The notes below the pieces were generated by a model that was given only the letters and a program-made list of their open reading frames with translations, was not told the origin of the DNA and made no database searches. Below, in pieces: positions 36,452 to 44,793 of a stretch of DNA of 64,000 nucleotides (its first letter is position 1; each line of letters begins with the position of its first letter). The position numbers and the translations under genes are program-made. Source of the stretch: Glycomyces albidus (GTDB taxonomy: Bacteria; Actinomycetota; Actinomycetes; Mycobacteriales; Micromonosporaceae); NCBI RefSeq assembly GCF_009451885.1, contig NZ_WIAO01000009.1:1-64000 (forward strand). Reading direction: 5' to 3'.

Positions 36452-36646
36452 TCAGGCGTCGTCGACGTTGCTGAGAATCTCCGAGAGGCGCTGCTGGACG
36501 CCTTCGAAGACGGCCACGTGCTCGGTGACGGGCAGGTCCGGGAGTGCTTCGAGCCGGCCGAGGGCCTCTTCGACCTCCGCCTCGACGTCGTCGGCGTCGC
36601 CGCGCAGGCGCGCCGCGACGGCCCCTGGGTTCGGTGCGCCGGTCAT
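36452..36646 (-). CDS. Small conserved actinobacterial protein, 64 aa
   Basis: A 64-residue acidic, helical protein (DVEAEVEEALGRLEALPDL ... VFEGVQQRLSEILSNV). Short ORFs of this type commonly precede tlyA in actinobacteria; no function is known to me. ATG 36646 overlaps the TGA of the upstream gene (ATGA), and the stop lies 58 bases before tlyA, so it is very probably translated in the same operon. Confidence 0.65.
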   Translation of the reverse strand: MTGAPNPGAVAARLRGDADDVEAEVEEALGRLEALPDLPVTEHVAVFEGVQQRLSEILSNVDDA

Positions 36647-37038
36647 GCGACCCCTTCGTCGTCGCCGCGCGTCTGCGGGGCGGCGGGGGGCGCTTCGGTG
36701 CCGGTCGAGGGCTCGGTGCGCCGGACCGCGGCGGCGGCCTCGGCTTCGGCGAGGCGGACGCGCAGCTCGCGGATCTGCTCCTCGTTGTGCTCGAGGCGCA
36801 GGTTGAGGTCGTCGAGGTCGGCCTGGGTGGCGACGCCGATGCGGCTGAGGGTCGCGTCGAGCTCGGCGCGGATGAGGCGCGCGAGGTCGTGCGCGGTGCG
36901 GCCGCCGTGGCTGCGGAGCTGCTCGGAGCCCGAGCGCAGGTCCTCGCGGAGCCTGCCGGCGAACTCGCGGGCGCGGCGGGCGGGCTCGCCGGCCATGCCG
37001 AAGACGGTGTCGAAGTAGGCGCGGGCGCTGTCGGCCAT
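36643..37038 (-). CDS. Phasin-like helical protein
   Basis: 131 residues with an amphipathic helical N-terminal half (ARAYFDTVFGMAGEPARRAREFAGRLREDL), then a probable coiled coil around LDDLNLRLEHNEEQIRELRV. The C-terminus is Pro/Thr-rich. The pattern resembles small phasin/PHA-granule regulator-like proteins of actinobacteria, a weak structural likeness rather than proof of granule binding. It is coupled by ATGA to the 64-residue gene and divergent from the SCP2-like gene at 37203. Confidence 0.55.
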   Translation of the reverse strand: MADSARAYFDTVFGMAGEPARRAREFAGRLREDLRSGSEQLRSHGGRTAHDLARLIRAELDATLSRIGVATQADLDDLNLRLEHNEEQIRELRVRLAEAEAAAAVRRTEPSTGTEAPPAAPQTRGDDEGVA

Positions 37039-37202
37039 GTGATCCCACTCCTTTCAGGTGCCAGGTTCCCGGGACGGGGTCCTCTCCGTTCAACGGTACT
37101 GCCAAGCTACCGGTGACCGGTCGCGACCAAAGGGTTGTACTGGTCGGTAACATTCTCGTGGGCGCACAGCCGCGCCCGCGCCGATCGAAACAGGAGGGCC
37201 CT

Positions 37203-37541
37203 ATGGCCACCATCGACGAATGCCGGACCGCCCTTGAGCAGTTCGCCGACAACCTCGCGTCGAACCCGAAGACGGTCAAGAAGCTGACCGGGTTCCAGCG
37301 CAGCCTCGCGGCCGACATCAAGGACCTGGACGTGTCGTTCAACGGCCGCTTCGACGGGGGCAAGCTCGTCGGCATCACCGACGGCGACAACCCCGACGCC
37401 GAGATCCGCATGATCGTCGCCTCCGACGACCTGCTCAAGCTCGTCGCGGGCGAGCTCGACTTCATGAAGGCGTTCACCGGGGGCCAGGTGAAGATCAAGG
37501 CCCCCATGATGGATCTGATGAAGCTCCGCCAGGTCCTCTAG
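37203..37541 (+). CDS. SCP2 (sterol carrier)-domain protein, copy 1
   Basis: A stand-alone SCP2-like lipid-binding domain of 112 residues: LAADIKDLDVSFNGRFDGGK, AEIRMIVASDDLLKLVAGEL, then FTGGQVKIKA, the usual SCP2 end. No signal peptide, so cytoplasmic. ATG 37203 follows GGAGGGCCC. It is paralogous to the gene at 37771; shared patterns include GGKL, (D)AE.R.I.ASDDL and KVKIKA. Bacterial SCP2 proteins bind acyl chains or lipids; the ligand is unknown. Confidence 0.82.
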   Translation: MATIDECRTALEQFADNLASNPKTVKKLTGFQRSLAADIKDLDVSFNGRFDGGKLVGITDGDNPDAEIRMIVASDDLLKLVAGELDFMKAFTGGQVKIKAPMMDLMKLRQVL

Positions 37542-37770: not shown

Positions 37771-38118
37771 ATGGCCACTGTTGACGAAGTCCGCAACGTG
37801 TTGGAGAAGATGGCGGGCAAGGTCGCCAAGAAGTCCGACGAGCTCAACCTTGAAGAAGACTTCGAACGCACGCTGGCCGTCGAAGTCACCGACCTGGGCC
37901 AGGCGTTCAGCGCCAAGCTCGCCGGAGGCAAGCTGACCGACCTGCTCGACGGCGACGCCGCCGACGCCGAGGTCCGCATCATCATCGCCTCCGACGACCT
38001 CATCGCCCTGTCGAAGAAGGAACTCAAGCCCGCCAAGGCGTTCCTGACCGGCAAGGTCAAGATCAAGGCGTCCGTCAAGGACCTGGCGAAGCTGCGCAAG
38101 GCCCTCAAGGTCGACTAG
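37771..38118 (+). CDS. SCP2 (sterol carrier)-domain protein, copy 2
   Basis: 115 residues, same domain as its neighbour: LAVEVTDLGQAFSAKLAGGK, AEVRIIIASDDLIALSKKEL, LTGKVKIKASVKDLAKLRKA. ATG 37771 follows GGGAGGA with a four-base gap. It has more Lys than copy 1, especially at the C-terminus. The 229-base space between the copies is GC-rich with no gene and presumably carries a separate promoter, so the copies may be expressed under different conditions. Confidence 0.82.
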   Translation: MATVDEVRNVLEKMAGKVAKKSDELNLEEDFERTLAVEVTDLGQAFSAKLAGGKLTDLLDGDAADAEVRIIIASDDLIALSKKELKPAKAFLTGKVKIKASVKDLAKLRKALKVD

Positions 38119-38193: not shown

Positions 38194-39231
38194 TCAGTCG
38201 CCCGCCAGGAGCTTCTCGGCGGCCTCCCCGAGCGGGACCGGCGACGAGGCCGGGTCGTAGCCGGCCATGTCGGCTGCGGCCCAGCTCAACTCGCACAGGG
38301 CCCGCCAGGCGTCGAGCTCGTCGCCCTGGCCGCTGAGGACGATCTGCCCGTCGGTGAGCGCGGCGGTCCAGCCGCCGCATTCGATGCGGTCGACCGCGTC
38401 GTTCCAGTCCGGTTCGGGGTGCGGCTCGGTCAGGGCGGCGAGGCTCCAGCCGAGGTAGGTCGGCCGCTCCTCGGGCGGCAGGCGCAGCGCCAGGCGCGGC
38501 GAGACCACTCCGGTGAACACCAGGAGCGAGTCCATGCCGGCCCGGTTCGCGCCCGCGATGTCCGAGTCGGGGCGGTCGCCGACCATGATCGCCCGACCGC
38601 CCGGCTTGCGGGCCGTGGCGATCCGGTAGATCGGCTGCTCGGGCTTGCCGGCCACGAAGTCGGGGCCGTGTCCGAGCGCGGTCGCCACCGCGCCCACGAG
38701 CGCGCCCATGCCGGGCAGCGGACCGTCCGGAGTGGGCAGTGTCGCGTCGAGGTTGGCAGTGGCCCAGTAGGCGCCGCCGCGCACCGCGATCGTGGTGTCG
38801 GCGAGCGCGCGCCACGTCGTCTGCGGCGTGTACCCGAAGGCCACCGCGCCGGCGGCCTTCGGGTCGTCGACCGGTTCGAGCCCGGCCTCGACCACCGCGG
38901 CGCGCAGCGCCTCGGAGCCGGTCACGAGGACCTTGCCGCCCTTGCCGATCCGGTCGAGGATGCCCGAGGCCACCACCTGCGCCGAGGTGAGGACCTGGTC
39001 TGCTTCGGCAGGGATGTCCATGCCGCGCAGGGCTTCCGCCACGGTCTCGGGGCTGCGGGAGGCGTTGTTCGTGACGAACACCGGGTCGCATTCGAGGCCC
39101 GGAAGGGCCGCGAGGGTCGCGGCCGCTTCCGGGATCGGTTCGTGCAGCAGGTACACGACGCCGTCGAGGTCGAGCAGCGCCAGGTCATAGGCGCGGGCGA
39201 GTGCCTCAGGGGCGCCTTTCAGTCGGGTCAT
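38194..39231 (-). CDS. HAD-IIA phosphatase, NagD/glycerol-3-phosphate phosphatase-like
   Basis: 345 residues. Motif I is DLALLDLDGVVYLLHEPI, motif II PVFVTNNASRSPETVAEAL, and the C-terminal Mg motif is AIMVGDRPDSDIAGANRAGM; a C2-type cap lies between. The last 90 residues form an extra small domain. Position after the TPR gene and near tyrS matches M. tuberculosis Rv1692, reported as a glycerol 3-phosphate phosphatase in lipid recycling. ATG 39231 overlaps the end of the TPR gene by 26 bases. Substrate by synteny only. Confidence 0.85.
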   Translation of the reverse strand: MTRLKGAPEALARAYDLALLDLDGVVYLLHEPIPEAAATLAALPGLECDPVFVTNNASRSPETVAEALRGMDIPAEADQVLTSAQVVASGILDRIGKGGKVLVTGSEALRAAVVEAGLEPVDDPKAAGAVAFGYTPQTTWRALADTTIAVRGGAYWATANLDATLPTPDGPLPGMGALVGAVATALGHGPDFVAGKPEQPIYRIATARKPGGRAIMVGDRPDSDIAGANRAGMDSLLVFTGVVSPRLALRLPPEERPTYLGWSLAALTEPHPEPDWNDAVDRIECGGWTAALTDGQIVLSGQGDELDAWRALCELSWAAADMAGYDPASSPVPLGEAAEKLLAGD

Positions 39232-41443
39232 GGGACTCCTCAGCGTCGGGGTTCGCCTGGTCGGCCGCCGGCTCGGACTGCTCCCGCGGAGCGCGGGGGG
39301 CCTCGGGCTCATCGCCCTCGTCGTCGTCCTCGTCTTCGTCTTCTTCGTCGTCGAGGCGGTCGTCCTCGTCGTCGTATTCGACGTCGTCGAGGTCTTCGCG
39401 GTCGACGTCGTCGTCTTCATCGCCGAGGTCGTCGTCATCGTCGAGGTCGTCGTCGCGATCCGCTTCGCGGGCTTCGCCGTCGTAGCGGGCCCGGTCGTCG
39501 TCCTCGTCATCGTCGAGGTCGTCTTCGTCGTCCTCGTACTCGTCGTCCTCGAGTTCCTCGATCTCGATGCCCTCGAGCTGGAGCAGGCGCTCGGCGGCGC
39601 CGGTCTCGCCCTCCTCGTCGGCGGCGACGGCCTTGGAGAGCCACTCGCGGGCCTCGTCTTCGCGGCCGTCGGCCAGCAGGCCCTCCGCGTAGGCGTAGCG
39701 CAGGCGCGCCACCCAGGGCTCGTTCTTCGGCGAGTTGAGCGCACCGACCTTGAGCATCGCGGTCGCCGCCTCGCCCATGCCCATGTCGCGGCGGGCGCCG
39801 GAGGCGACGATCAGCAGCTCGACCCGGACCTCCGGGTCGACGCTCTCGTCGTTGCCGAACTCGCGGTACAGATCGATCGCGCGCTCGGGGTGTCCAAGGG
39901 CGCGTTCGCAGTCGGCGATGAGCGCCACGTGGTCGTGGGTGCCGCCGAGGCGCTGCGCGGCGCGGAGCTCGTTGACGGCGAGCTGCCACTCCTCGGCCCC
40001 GTACGCGGCCACGCCGGTCACCTCGCGCACGATCGCCACGCGGGACGCCTTGCGGCGGGCGTAGCGGGCCTGCTCGAGCGCGCCCTGGACGTCGTCCTCG
40101 GCGAGCAGCGCGGCGGCCGCGAGGAGCCGGTTGCCGACGGCCTCGGCGAGCTGCTTGTTCAGGCTGCGCAGGCCCTCGCGGGTCTCCTTGTCGAGCTGGT
40201 CGAAACCGTACTCGACGCCCTCCGGCAGGTTCGGGGCCTCGTCGGTCTCGCCCAGGCGGATCGGGCCCTCGTGGCCGGCCTCGCGCTCCTCGAGCGGACG
40301 CAGGTTGTCCCTGCCGCGGCGCTCGCGGCCGTCGCGACCGAGGCGGTCGCCCCGGTCCCGGTCGTCGTAGCGGCGCGGACCGCGGTCGTCACGGCGGAAA
40401 CCGCCGCGGTCGTCGCGGTTGAACCCGCCACGGCCGCCGCCGCGGTCGTCGCGGTTGCCCTCGAAGCGGCGCGGACCGCGGTCGTCGCGGTCGAAACGGC
40501 GCGGACGCTCGTCCCGGTCGAACGTGCGGGGACCGCGGTCATCGCGGTTGCCTTCGTAACGACGGGGGCCGCGGTCGTCGCGGTTGAAGCCGCGCTGGCC
40601 GCCGCGGTCGCCGTCGAACCGGCGCGGGCCGCGGTCGTCGCCATCGCGACGCGGCCGGTCGTCCCGGTTGCCTTCGTACCGGCGCGGGCCGCGGTCGTCC
40701 CGGTTGTAGCCGCCGCGGTCATCGCGGTTGAAGCTCCGCTGCCCGCCGCGGTCGTCGCGGTTGTAGCCGCCGCGGCTGCCGCCCCGGTCGTCACGGTTGT
40801 AACCGCCACGGCTGCCGCCCCGGTCGTCGCGGTTGAAACCACCGCGGCTGCCGCCCCGATCGTCACGGTTGAAGCTGCGCTGTCCGCCGCGGTCATCGCG
40901 GTTAAAGCTGCGCTGTCCGCCGCGGTCGCCGTCGTACCGGCGCGGGCCGCGGTCGTCGCGGTTGTAGCCGCCGCGGTCGTCGCGGTTGAAGCTGCGCTGT
41001 CCGCCGCGGTCGTCGCCGTCCCGACGGGGCCGGTCGTCGCGGTTGAAACCGCGCTGGCCGCCCCGGTCGTCACGGTTGAAACCACCGCGGCTGCCGCCCC
41101 GATCGTCACGGTTGAAGCTGCGCTGTCCGCCGCGGTCGCCGTCGTACCGGCGCGGGCCGCGGTCGTCCCGGTTGTAGCCGCCCCGGTCATCGCCGTCGCG
41201 GCGCGGCCGGTCGTCGCGGTTCCCTTCGTAGCGGCGCGGACCCCGGTCGTCCCGGTCCTCGTACCGCCTCGGTCGATCGTCGCGGCCTTCGCTGCGGCCG
41301 GAGCCGCCCCGGCTGTCGCCGCCGCCTTCCCGGCGGTCGTAACCGCCTCGGTTGGAACGGTCGCCGTAGCCGCCGCCCTCGCGACGGCCGTAGCCGCCTC
41401 GTCGGTCTTCTCCACCCTTGCGGGCGCGGCCGTCTTCAGCCAC
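39206..41443 (-). CDS. RGG/RDDRGG-repeat, TPR-like and acidic-tail protein
   Basis: 745 residues in three parts. Residues 1 to about 380 are low complexity, built of imperfect units such as FNRDDRGGQRS, YNRDDRGPRRYDGDRGG and RYEGNRDDRPRRDGDDRG. They are rich in Arg, Asp, Gly and aromatic Tyr/Phe, with hardly any aliphatic residues. About 400-610 is a helical TPR-like region (LNKQLAEAVGNRLLAAAALL; YGAEEWQLAVNELRAAQRLG), which corresponds to the short TPR protein found here in relatives (Rv1691). The last 120 or so are strongly acidic (EDDEYEDDEDDLDDDEDDD). GTG 41443 follows GGGGGAG at six bases. Just downstream of tyrS. RGG-type regions bind RNA and can phase separate in eukaryotes; that role here is inference. 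Confidence 0.85.
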   Translation of the reverse strand: MAEDGRARKGGEDRRGGYGRREGGGYGDRSNRGGYDRREGGGDSRGGSGRSEGRDDRPRRYEDRDDRGPRRYEGNRDDRPRRDGDDRGGYNRDDRGPRRYDGDRGGQRSFNRDDRGGSRGGFNRDDRGGQRGFNRDDRPRRDGDDRGGQRSFNRDDRGGYNRDDRGPRRYDGDRGGQRSFNRDDRGGQRSFNRDDRGGSRGGFNRDDRGGSRGGYNRDDRGGSRGGYNRDDRGGQRSFNRDDRGGYNRDDRGPRRYEGNRDDRPRRDGDDRGPRRFDGDRGGQRGFNRDDRGPRRYEGNRDDRGPRTFDRDERPRRFDRDDRGPRRFEGNRDDRGGGRGGFNRDDRGGFRRDDRGPRRYDDRDRGDRLGRDGRERRGRDNLRPLEEREAGHEGPIRLGETDEAPNLPEGVEYGFDQLDKETREGLRSLNKQLAEAVGNRLLAAAALLAEDDVQGALEQARYARRKASRVAIVREVTGVAAYGAEEWQLAVNELRAAQRLGGTHDHVALIADCERALGHPERAIDLYREFGNDESVDPEVRVELLIVASGARRDMGMGEAATAMLKVGALNSPKNEPWVARLRYAYAEGLLADGREDEAREWLSKAVAADEEGETGAAERLLQLEGIEIEELEDDEYEDDEDDLDDDEDDDRARYDGEAREADRDDDLDDDDDLGDEDDDVDREDLDDVEYDDEDDRLDDEEDEDEDDDEGDEPEAPRAPREQSEPAADQANPDAEESHDPTERRP
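40350..41400 (-). repeat. In-gene tandem repeats encoding RDDRGG-type units
   Basis: The DNA repeats with a basic unit of about 30-36 bases (CGCGGTCGTCGCGGTTGAA and variants on the plus strand) across roughly 1 kb. Unit order is irregular and longer blocks recur, for example the stretch around 40735-40760 and that around 40860-40930. This suggests repeated unequal exchange within the gene. Such an array is likely to vary in length between strains. Confidence 0.7.
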
Positions 41444-41492
41444 GTGCGTCTCCCCCTCTGTTCACCGCGACAAAACCAATCAAGTGTATGCC

Positions 41493-42749
41493 TCAGCCGA
41501 TGACCTCGACCCCGGCGACGGTCTTCTTGCCGCGCCGGATCACTCCGTATTTGCCGTGAAGCAGGTCAGAGCGGTCGATAGCGGCCGCGGGGTCGGTGAC
41601 GCGGACGTTGTTGAGGTACGCGCCGCCCTCCTTGGCGGCGCGGCGGGCCTCGCCGAGGCTCGCGACCACGCCGGCCTCCTTCATCGCCTCGGCGACGGTG
41701 ACGTCGGGCTTGTGGATCTCGGCCAGGCCGGCCTCCACGAGCGCGGCGCGCAGCGTCGCCTCGGGCAGCTCGGCCAGCTCGCCGCGGCCGAACAGCGCCT
41801 GGGAGGCGGCGATGACGTTCTGCGTCTCCTCGGCGCCGTGCAGGAGCGTCGTCAGCTCCTCGGCGAGGGCCTTCTGCGCCAGGCGCGCGGCCGGCTTCTC
41901 GACGGTCGCCCGCTCCAGCTCCTCGATCTCCTCGTGCGACTTGAACGAGAAGTACTTCAGGTAGCGCACCACGTCGGCGTCGCCGGAGTTGAGCCAGAAC
42001 TGGTAGAATGCGTACGGGCTGGTGAGCTCGGGGTCCAGCCAGACGGCGCCGCCCTCGGTCTTGCCGAACTTCGAGCCGTCGGCCTTGGTCACGAGCGGTG
42101 TCACGAAGGCGTGGACGTGCTCGCCGGTGCGGCGGCGGATGTAGTCGACGCCGGCGGTGATGTTGCCCCACTGATCCGACCCTCCGAACTGGAGGGTGCA
42201 GCCGTGCCTGCGGTGCAGCTCGAAGAAATCGTGGGACTGGAGGAGCTGGTAGGAGAACTCGGTGAACGAGATCCCGGAGTCCAGGCGGGCCTTGACGACC
42301 TCGCGGGCGAGCATCTTCGAGATCGGGAAGTGCTTGCCGACGTCGCGGAGGAAGTCCACCACGCCCAGCTCGGACGTCCAGTCCAGGTTGTTCACCGGGA
42401 TCGCGCCGTTGTCGCCGTCGTAGGTGACGAACGGGGAGACCTGGGCGCGGATCTTCTCCACCCAGCCCGCCACGACCTCCGGAGGGTTCAGCGTGCGCTC
42501 CCCCGCCTCCTTCGGGTCGCCGATCTGACCGGTCGCGCCGCCGACGAGCAGCAGCGGGCGCAGCCCGCCCTGCTGGAGGCGGCGGGCGGTGAGCACCTGC
42601 ATCAGGTGGCCGACGTGCAGGCTGACGGCGGTGGGGTCGAAGCCCACATAGAACGTGACCTGCCCGGCGTCGATGGACTCGCGGAGGGAGTCGATGCCGG
42701 TGGAGTCCTGGATGAGGCCGCGCCATGCGAAATCGTCGAGAATATGCAC
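41493..42749 (-). CDS. tyrS: Tyrosyl-tRNA synthetase
   Basis: Class I synthetase of 418 residues. The HIGH-type motif is DPTAVSLHVGHLMQVL, the tyrosine/tRNA motif LQFGGSDQWGNITAGVDYI, and the KMSKS equivalent DGSKFGKTEGGAVWLD (KFGKT, as in TyrRS). A C-terminal S4-like domain ends the protein (NNVRVTDPAAAI ... RRGKKTVAGV). GTG 42749 begins VHILDDFAWRGLIQDST, the normal actinobacterial N-terminus. The long in-frame opening upstream is a shadow. No T-box leader was seen. Confidence 0.97.
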   Translation of the reverse strand: MHILDDFAWRGLIQDSTGIDSLRESIDAGQVTFYVGFDPTAVSLHVGHLMQVLTARRLQQGGLRPLLLVGGATGQIGDPKEAGERTLNPPEVVAGWVEKIRAQVSPFVTYDGDNGAIPVNNLDWTSELGVVDFLRDVGKHFPISKMLAREVVKARLDSGISFTEFSYQLLQSHDFFELHRRHGCTLQFGGSDQWGNITAGVDYIRRRTGEHVHAFVTPLVTKADGSKFGKTEGGAVWLDPELTSPYAFYQFWLNSGDADVVRYLKYFSFKSHEEIEELERATVEKPAARLAQKALAEELTTLLHGAEETQNVIAASQALFGRGELAELPEATLRAALVEAGLAEIHKPDVTVAEAMKEAGVVASLGEARRAAKEGGAYLNNVRVTDPAAAIDRSDLLHGKYGVIRRGKKTVAGVEVIG

Positions 42750-42811: not shown

Positions 42812-44659
42812 CTACGCCGGGGAGCGGCTGCCGGTCTCCCCGAGCGCGAGCCCGGCTTCGATGAGCACACGCAGCTCGACGGAGGCGGCGGTCTTCGCGG
42901 CCTGCTTGGTCGGGCCCGTCCCTTCGGCCCTCACCTGCTCGCCGGTGTCGCGCAGCAGGCCCTCGCCGCGGCACGTGAACACCCGCTCGTGCGAGGGTCC
43001 CTCGACGGCGAAGTCCCAGGTCAAGCCCTCAAGGATTCCCCGGGCGGCGTAGATCTGGACGGCCTCGGCGGGATTGACCGCGGCGTCCACGAGGAGCTTG
43101 CGCTGCACGTCGGCGCGGGGCTTCGCGGGCGCGTCGGACGAGAGGTCCGGCAGGCCCGCCAGCGCCGCCGCCAGTGCCAGAGCGGCCTGGTTCCGGGCGT
43201 CCTTCTTGTTGCGCTGCAAGCGTTTGGGCGACTCGACGCGGGTGTCGCCGAAGGTGAGCGCGACCTGGGCGGAGAAGAGCGGGCCCTCGAATGCGGGTTC
43301 GGGCTCGACGGTCCAGTGGACGTTCGTCTCGCTGCTGACCGGGCCGCCGAGGCGGTCCTGGAGGTAGACGTTGAGGACGGACTGGGCCTGCTGGGGTTCG
43401 CCGGCGAGGCGGCGGTTCATGCGCTCGCGCAGCGGCGCGAACTCGTCGCCGCCGTAGAGGTAGACGGACGCGAACTCGCGGAGCTGGAGCTCGCGGGAGT
43501 CGAGGCGGCGGGCGGTGTCGGCGGCGAGTCCGGCCGGGGCGTCGCCGCGTTCGACGGCGAACTGGAGGACGCGGGCGAACTGCTTGTACGGGAGCGTCGC
43601 GAAGTCGGCGGCCTCCATCTGGCGCTCGGTCTCGGCCTGGGCGCGCTGCTTGAAGAACTCGGCCTTGGCGCGGCGCTCGGCCTCGAGCGAGGCGTTGACG
43701 TGCGCGGCGGTCTCGGCGAGCTCCTCGGCGGTGTAGGGGCCGGGGCGGCCGAGGGCGGCGGCGAGGAGGATCCGCTGGGTGACCAGGTCGGGGTAGCGGC
43801 GCAGCGGGCTGGTGGCGTGGGTGTAGACGGGCAGCTGGAGGCCGTGGTGGCCGTGGACGGTGGGGCCGTATGTAGCGGCGCGGGAGACCATCTTCATGCG
43901 GGAGCGCAGCATCTCGAAGGCGGCGCCGTCTCCGGAGGAGGCGACGGCGTCGATCTCGTCGCGCAGGCCGGCGGGGTCGCCGGCGACGGCGGCGAGGCGG
44001 TGGTTGCGGAAGAGGATCGGGAGGTCCTCGCGGACGGCCCAGGCGGCGATCTGCGCGTTCGCGGCGATCATGAACTCCTGCACGATGATGTAGCCGGAGT
44101 TGCGTTCGGCGGAGTCGAGGCGGACGATCTGGCCTTCCTCGTTGGTGGCGAAGCCGCTGAGGAGGTCGTAGAACGCGAGCGCTCCCGCGTTGCGCCGCGC
44201 GGCGAGCATGGTCTGGGAGAAGCGCAGGGCGAGCGCGAGCGTGCCGTGGAGCGGGTGGCCGGGGTCGCCGGAGGCGGCGGCGGCTTCGGCGTGGGTCATG
44301 ATCCAGGAGCGGGTGAGGCGGCCGGGGCCGAGTTCGGCGTCGAGGACGCGCCCGGCGGCGTCGATGTGCAGGTGGACGGCGAAGGTGTCGTTGGGGCGGC
44401 CGGGGGTGAGGGAGGCGGCCTCGACGACGGGCGCGGGGAGCATGTGCCGGGTGTGGTCGGCGCGGTAACGGGTGTGGACGCGACGGCGCGCTTCGGTGTC
44501 GGCGGGTCCGCCGGTGCGCACGTGGTCGGCGGCGCGGGCGATGTGGATCCAGACGTCGAAGCCGTCGCCTCGGGGCTCGATCCAGACCGCGTCGTCGCGG
44601 TCGACTGTGGTGGCGGCGTCGATCATGATGCCGCACTCCGCCGGGTTGTGCACGGCCAA
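42812..44659 (-). CDS. RNB-domain exoribonuclease with two C-terminal dsRNA-binding-like domains
   Basis: 615 residues. The RNase II/R catalytic domain begins almost at the N-terminus: IMIDAATTVDRDDAVWIE holds all four metal-binding Asp positions of the IDSASTEDMDDAL motif of RNase II. THATSPLRRYPDLVTQRILL is the downstream Arg motif. The usual N-terminal cold-shock domains and C-terminal S1 domain are absent. Instead there are two segments with dsRBD character. At about 446-500 is FEGPLFSAQVAL then RNKKDARNQAALALAAALAG; at about 545-605 is GPSHERVFTC then GTGPTKQAAKTAASVELRVL. TTG 44659 has GAAGGAG five bases upstream; GTG 44653 is possible. Probably degrades structured RNA. Confidence 0.82.
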   Translation of the reverse strand: MAVHNPAECGIMIDAATTVDRDDAVWIEPRGDGFDVWIHIARAADHVRTGGPADTEARRRVHTRYRADHTRHMLPAPVVEAASLTPGRPNDTFAVHLHIDAAGRVLDAELGPGRLTRSWIMTHAEAAAASGDPGHPLHGTLALALRFSQTMLAARRNAGALAFYDLLSGFATNEEGQIVRLDSAERNSGYIIVQEFMIAANAQIAAWAVREDLPILFRNHRLAAVAGDPAGLRDEIDAVASSGDGAAFEMLRSRMKMVSRAATYGPTVHGHHGLQLPVYTHATSPLRRYPDLVTQRILLAAALGRPGPYTAEELAETAAHVNASLEAERRAKAEFFKQRAQAETERQMEAADFATLPYKQFARVLQFAVERGDAPAGLAADTARRLDSRELQLREFASVYLYGGDEFAPLRERMNRRLAGEPQQAQSVLNVYLQDRLGGPVSSETNVHWTVEPEPAFEGPLFSAQVALTFGDTRVESPKRLQRNKKDARNQAALALAAALAGLPDLSSDAPAKPRADVQRKLLVDAAVNPAEAVQIYAARGILEGLTWDFAVEGPSHERVFTCRGEGLLRDTGEQVRAEGTGPTKQAAKTAASVELRVLIEAGLALGETGSRSPA

Positions 44660-44793
44660 CTGCGCTCCTTCGTGTCCAGCCGCAATCGTAGCGGGAGCGA
44701 CACGCAGCGGGTGCGCACGCACGGGCGAGGCGTCCGCATGGCGGGGAAAGCAGTCGTGGGGCCGCGGCGGGCGGTTTCACCGCGCACCGGGAC

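Follow-up and report, generated by a model that had tools for sequence, protein, structure and literature searches.

The gene analysed here lies on the minus strand of a 64,000-nucleotide stretch of Glycomyces albidus DNA (positions 1 to 64,000 of contig NZ_WIAO01000009.1, assembly GCF_009451885.1; hereafter the window) and encodes a protein made of three blocks: Arg/Gly-rich repeats with RGG motifs, a tetratricopeptide repeat (TPR) core and an acidic tail. The three-block composition is conserved across several families. Across the phylum the gene is widely found behind a ribosomal RNA (rRNA) operon, a place that it does not have in the lineage of the window. This place hints at a role of the uncharacterised family in rRNA biology, and we give an even chance to the proposal that its members act as RNA-binding scaffolds or chaperones tied to rRNA synthesis or ribosome assembly, a function that we infer. 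Such proteins would bind RNA, condense, be co-transcribed with rRNA and contribute to ribosome biogenesis. The gene and its parts are as follows.

39206-41443, minus strand: whole RGG/TPR/acidic gene, 745 residues, GTG start, stop codon at 39206-39208 (open reading frame)
40280-41443, minus strand: residues 1-388, RGG-type repeats, predicted disordered; R 0.30, G 0.22, D 0.20, Y+F 0.08, net charge +26 (composition, shuffles, tandem repeats)
39536-40279, minus strand: residues 389-636, TPR core (AlphaFold model, generic TPR matches)
39209-39535, minus strand: residues 637-745, acidic tail; D43 and E21 in 109 residues, net charge -54 (composition)

Composition and structure of the protein

The N-terminal 388 residues comprise R116, G87, D76, N21, E15, Y15, P15 and F15, with a single Lys (K1), and their composition points to a disordered region. 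They contain 24 RGG motifs; 1000 shuffles average 5.8 and never exceed 13. Eukaryotic RGG/GAR (glycine- and arginine-rich) proteins are marked by RGG motifs spaced close together, as defined by the tri-RGG/di-RGG spacing rule; by this rule the repeat region holds five di-RGG and no tri-RGG, and none of 1000 shuffles exceeds four di-RGG. Charges are mixed more evenly than in shuffles (blob variance 0.05 vs 0.11), and aromatic residues are regularly spaced, with a standard deviation of 4.0 against a shuffle mean of 11.5 and a minimum of 6.0 in 1000; both regularities arise partly because the sequence is repetitive. The acidic tail is 59% Asp/Glu. Net charges are thus +26 for the repeats, a weakly basic polyampholyte, -24 for the core, -54 for the tail and -52 for the whole protein.

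The core was modelled with AlphaFold as all-helical (pLDDT 91.9, pTM 0.86), with the helix pairs forming a superhelix. The model has six matches in the PDB at E <= 0.001: by title, five are TPR proteins, and the sixth is a chain of an anaphase-promoting complex (APC/C) subunit; the matches are generic, and include designed consensus TPRs, YrrB, APC/C subunits, Rap and NprR. By sequence, four Pfam TPR models match the core, all under their cut-offs (E 0.0079 to 0.075), two NCBIfam models match far under theirs, and no PDB relative was found at E <= 0.01. A Pfam scan of the protein returned no recognised RNA-binding domain, and no fused nuclease or RNA-decay enzyme domain. The three-part architecture proposed from the letters of the window, before any database search (the sequence-only reading), is real: 388 residues of RGG repeats, a confidently modelled TPR core and a 109-residue acidic tail.

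All parts of the open reading frame are coding. The 745 codons are free of internal stops, and GC content at third positions is 0.86, 0.97 and 0.82 in repeats, core and tail. Compared with 18 congeneric sequences, the ratio of nonsynonymous to synonymous differences (pN/pS; pooled, uncorrected) is 0.40 in the first 75 codons, 0.18 in the core and 0.67 in the tail. Furthermore, the 11 copies of RDDRGG have eight codon spellings, so the repeat units differ synonymously, and a comparison of 22 repeat windows gave pN 0.31 and pS 0.50. The other five frames of the repeat region differ in composition. One antisense frame of 757 codons (39230-41503, plus strand), Ala/Val-rich, is open across the entire gene as a by-product of the repeat codon composition; as a true coding frame it is ruled out by the conserved TPR core and by pN/pS on the minus strand.

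Position behind rRNA operons in relatives

Relatives were compared in a first set of 80 loci, hand-chosen among genomes with a core match, of which 46 extend 2.9 kb or more upstream of the core. Nine of the 46 belong to Glycomyces and the two nearest genera, one clade on the core tree that we call Glycomycetaceae, and all nine have tyrS directly upstream. In 32 of the 37 other loci with enough upstream DNA a same-strand 5S gene lies upstream, with 23S before it in most, and 27 of the 33 families fetched have one or more loci in which 5S precedes the gene. The distance to 5S is large in some of the 32 (about 2.5 kb in locus L075, 1.6 kb in L105 and 0.85 kb in L099). The 34 loci with less than 2.9 kb upstream showed 5S in 20, tyrS in one and nothing in 13. 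A second set of 80 species-named loci showed 5S in 44, tyrS in three (all Glycomyces) and nothing in 33, of which 31 reach a contig end; contig ends lie less than 2.9 kb from the core in 69 of these 80 loci, as expected beside rRNA.

Of 20 genomes already showing 5S, 13 also have tyrS upstream of the rRNA, one of them (L192) by a short match; a 16S probe had no match in L192 and L199. One genome of the same class (G271) carries the gene twice (L062, L063); the two cores are identical, and a separate 23S-5S directly precedes each copy. Since rrn operons number a handful per genome among thousands of genes, chance adjacency should be rare; the loci counted here are a hand-chosen sample. The ancestral order was probably tyrS, 16S-23S-5S, RGG/TPR gene, HAD phosphatase. 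In the window a homologous TPR core lies between tyrS and the HAD phosphatase gene, and the gap from tyrS to the GTG start is 49 nt, at the joint where many relatives hold an rRNA operon. Glycomycetaceae have no rRNA operon at the locus and have retained the gene, and the window gene belongs to an rRNA-linked TPR family by descent, not by 5S adjacency. The RNA-related context suggested by the sequence-only reading turned out stronger than the window shows; the operon went unseen there because Glycomyces lacks it at this locus.

In print, rrnB lies downstream of tyrS in mycobacteria (PMC10218544, PMC6089878); the text of PMC10218544 does not contain 'TPR', 'tetratrico' or 'Rv1691'. Among the papers listed, a literature search that left out most subscription papers returned nothing on the function of the protein or on a TPR gene behind 5S.

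Spacing and hairpin behind 5S

Spacing was measured in 94 loci (97 less three duplicates). A start codon preceded by a Shine-Dalgarno-like site lies within 250 nt of the 5S end in 69 of them, at 64-140 nt in 54 of the 69, and a stem of at least 10 bp stands between 5S and start in 66 of the 69. From stem to start the median distance is 43 nt, with 38 of the 69 loci below 50 nt; in 31 of the 69 a T-run and a gap of 50 nt are both missing. Because the script keeps the largest stem found within the first 95 nt, medians are approximate and T-run counts a lower bound; it picked a second stem in a few loci (e.g. L172, L188, L059, L122) and an early start codon in L121 and L157. The hairpin analysis left out L001, L002, L029, L063, L103 and loci without such a start within 250 nt. 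The short distance and the hairpin leave little room for a separate promoter in many loci. This suggests that the gene is expressed by read-through in many lineages, whereas others would terminate transcription and use a separate promoter.

Distribution and variation of the three-part plan

A core match was found in 57 of 61 genomes, G. albidus included; the four without one (G020, G023, G026, G041) are drafts of 350-1080 contigs. Within Glycomyces the gene is present in 20 of 21 genomes. In each of these 20 it encodes RGG repeats, with 4-32 RGG motifs, and an acidic tail of 25-136 residues; one locus (L020) is truncated by a contig end. The idea that repeats and tail were gained in this genome by an otherwise plain TPR protein does not hold for these congeners, and Micromonosporaceae, Streptomyces and Streptosporangiales commonly have long RGG forms. 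Plain relatives do exist in family f8, where the N-terminus is 38-86 residues in five of six loci (273 in the sixth) and the tail 1-2 residues, so that five of six are nearly plain TPR proteins; that part of the expectation stands, whereas it fails for the genus and family. Short forms also occur in several other classes. Gene position and order suggest that f8 is mycobacterial. None of the 57 core matches contains a stop, contrary to the picture of a frameshifted gene whose orthologues lack repeats.

In a sample of the phylum the core matched in 150 of 396 genomes at E <= 0.001; among the 20 of the 246 non-matching genomes that are listed, all lie outside the class. Medians were taken over hand-made groups of loci intact at the 5' end, with one Glycomyces genome present twice (L004, L110) and L143 placed with Streptosporangiales by hand. 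Median N-terminal length and RGG count are 404 and 17 in Glycomycetaceae (21 loci, range 111-492 residues), 568 and 20 in Micromonosporaceae (11 loci), 621 and 25 in Pseudonocardiaceae (10 loci), 387 and 14 in Streptomycetaceae (11 loci), 305 and 9 in Streptosporangiales (13 loci), 64 and 1 in f8 (6 loci), 327 and 3 in other families of the order and class (19 loci), and 227 and 1.5 in other classes (14 loci). The repeat unit varies by clade, and in the five long-form clades median contents are 6-8% for aromatics, 0-3% for Lys, 0 for Trp and Cys, and 1-2.5% for I/L/V/M. Locus L143 (NYMS01000019.1, titled Glycomyces fuscus TRM 49117) has a layout like Nocardiopsis L134 and L142 and unlike Glycomyces, with 5S upstream and a HAD-type match about 5 kb off on the opposite strand; the record may be mislabelled.

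On a core tree of 92 rows the RGG-type state, with a threshold set by us, changed at least 17 times, at least seven of them forced by well-supported branches; the repeats thus came or went repeatedly. The tree left out 5'-cut loci, L029, L105, L110, L119, L127, L185, L112-L114, L164 and every second remaining named locus, and further duplicate genomes may remain among the loci.

Among 118 5'-complete proteins, 58 have a C-terminal part of at least 40 residues, net negative in 58 of 58. Seven long forms examined that lack a tail (C-terminal part 0-8 residues), namely L099 of family f1 and Pseudonocardiaceae L122, L133, L137, L139, L144 and L146, hold an acidic stretch between repeats and core. 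Net charges of the N- and C-terminal parts are inversely related (rho -0.57, n=118, uncorrected for phylogeny; 5'-cut loci, L105, L119, L127, L185, L112 and loci below L032 left out, and at least one genome present twice as L103 and L164). The acidic block changes place yet is kept. The proposed pair of oppositely charged ends is correct as to sign, but the charges are lopsided (+26 vs -54) and the block is internal in the seven long forms, so that a terminal position is not what is conserved.

The gene is single-copy in its own genome, where a similarity search found no second repeat region of the RGG kind at E <= 10, a search that may pass over unlike RGG repeats. Lentzea jiangxiensis has two family loci in one genome, L155 and L158, the former cut by a contig end. 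A phage or plasmid origin of the gene was rejected: none of 26 pattern stretches in viral contigs codes for a relative, and there are two plasmid records, one of 11.85 Mb.

Local neighbourhood

The flanking genes in the window are the following.

38194-39231, minus strand: HAD phosphatase gene, downstream (Pfam PF13344, PF13242)
41493-42740, minus strand: tyrS, upstream (Pfam PF00579)

A putative ATG of the HAD phosphatase gene at 39231 gives a 26-nt overlap with the end of the RGG/TPR gene. Pfam agrees with the earlier assignment of the HAD, tyrS, RNB and tlyA-type (S4 + FtsJ) neighbours. The RNB-domain gene (42812-44722, minus strand) weakly matches the double-stranded-RNA-binding model dsrm towards its C-terminus (27.6 bits, cut-off 23). 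Two small SCP2 sterol-carrier-like genes (Pfam) stand side by side on the opposite strand (37194-37541 and 37825-38118, plus strand), and a small protein (36643-37038, minus strand) has a phasin-like match slightly under cut-off (26 bits, cut-off 28.8).

Discussion

The proposal of an RNA-binding scaffold or chaperone linked to rRNA is drawn from several observations. The N-terminal region combines 24 RGG with regular aromatics and an Arg:Lys ratio of 116 to one, and a similar composition is built from different units in five long-form clades; the acidic block is kept despite moving; and the place of the gene is marked by same-strand 5S in 32 of 37 loci, starts close to 5S, tyrS ahead of the rRNA in 13 of the 20 genomes examined for it and the double copy in G271. 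Moreover, MSMEG_3754, the Mycobacterium smegmatis orthologue of Rv1691, is described as a nucleic-acid-associated candidate: it comes from the high-confidence list of an affinity purification and mass spectrometry (AP-MS) study of RNA polymerase cross-linked to nucleic acid, and the authors allow that it may be RNA-associated (PMC7092591). It is also listed in a table of a ClpC1 interactome. Both appearances could reflect stickiness. From their position the f8 loci appear to be the Rv1691/MSMEG_3754 genes: they too are flanked by tyrS (with rrnB present or absent) and by the HAD phosphatase gene, and their core is homologous at 43-46% identity, whereas they have a short Arg-rich N-terminus (38-86 residues in five of six) and no acidic tail.

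Eukaryotic RGG/GAR proteins such as nucleolin, fibrillarin, FUS and LAF-1 carry an Arg/Gly-rich disordered region with aromatics, and nucleolin also has an acidic stretch and a connection to rRNA. The Glycomyces protein resembles them in its Arg/Gly region, predicted disordered, and its aromatics, but is Asp-rich, with nearly neutral repeats, a TPR core and no recognised RNA-binding domain; the likeness is one of composition. Within our proposal, the Arg/Gly/Asp/aromatic repeats would make many weak contacts with RNA and could gather several molecules, the TPR core would dock a protein partner, and the acidic block would compete with RNA for the arginines, keeping the protein soluble or switching its state. 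In many relatives, read-through past the trailer hairpin behind 5S would yield the protein in step with pre-rRNA, and it would then serve in rRNA folding or processing or in the assembly of ribosomes. A bolder version, which we find rather unlikely, would have a nucleolin-like rRNA scaffold made as the last cistron of the rRNA operon via pre-rRNA read-through, with repeats that condense nascent rRNA for processing and assembly and an acidic block as release switch; Glycomycetaceae and some mycobacteria would have lost the operon and kept the gene.

Several results weigh against the rRNA-linked proposal. No same-strand 5S precedes the gene in any of the nine Glycomycetaceae loci, the window included. 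Five of the 37 other loci also lack upstream 5S (L068, which has tyrS instead, L053, L069, L076 and L080); Rfam finds no 5S in the last four, of which L080 does have a 16S. Nocardiopsis L189 and L191 have room for 5S and none is seen. On the core tree, where 69 of 92 rows have it, 5S adjacency changed at least 12 times, some changes perhaps reflecting contig ends, so this adjacency appears to have been lost or shifted repeatedly, or to escape notice where contigs end. A T-run of at least four near the stem end in at least 20 of 69 loci, 11 of them Streptomyces or f18, looks terminator-like and would count against plain read-through there. The generic matches of the core model point to no specific function, and the pull-down of FLAG-tagged MSMEG_3754, the short mycobacterial orthologue, yielded no DNA (PMC7092591).

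The persistence of the gene without rRNA in Glycomycetaceae would also suit a protein that scaffolds bulk mRNA or RNA decay, its rRNA neighbourhood being inherited synteny, and the RGG-type composition, with tyrS and an RNB-domain gene upstream in the window, fits as well. The model for such a protein is Caulobacter RNase E in bacterial ribonucleoprotein bodies (BR-bodies), whose Arg-rich disordered region with acidic patches is thought to scaffold RNA. However, the Pfam scan found no decay enzyme fused to the Glycomyces protein, which is a different gene in a different place, and 5S adjacency spans several classes of the phylum; we regard this explanation as improbable, although not strongly so.

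Much the same weight goes to the view that function resides in the TPR core alone, and that the repeats and the acidic block are low-complexity expansions that arose in GC-rich DNA and are tolerated. Short forms in f8 and several other classes, the freely varying repeat number and unit (N-terminus of 111-492 residues in Glycomycetaceae), at least 17 changes of the RGG-type state and a tail pN/pS of 0.67 are what it would lead one to expect. It accords poorly with the pN/pS of 0.40 in the first 75 codons, with repeat units spelled differently at synonymous sites, with the different composition of the other five frames, and with the recurrence of aromatics, near-absent Lys, Trp and Cys and few aliphatics in clades with different units. 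Finally, co-purification of MSMEG_3754 with RNA polymerase cross-linked to nucleic acid (PMC7092591) and a gene that adjoins rrn in many relatives could indicate a DNA-, nucleoid- or RNA-polymerase-associated protein acting on transcription, perhaps at rrn; with no DNA recovered in the FLAG pull-down, this is the least probable of the explanations considered.

RGG-type, condensation-prone proteins have been studied mainly in eukaryotes. A family of such proteins retained next to rRNA genes in much of the phylum, Streptomyces included, would allow direct tests of two questions: do bacteria use low-complexity scaffolds to organise the maturation of rRNA, and can the tail of an rRNA operon be an expressed protein gene?

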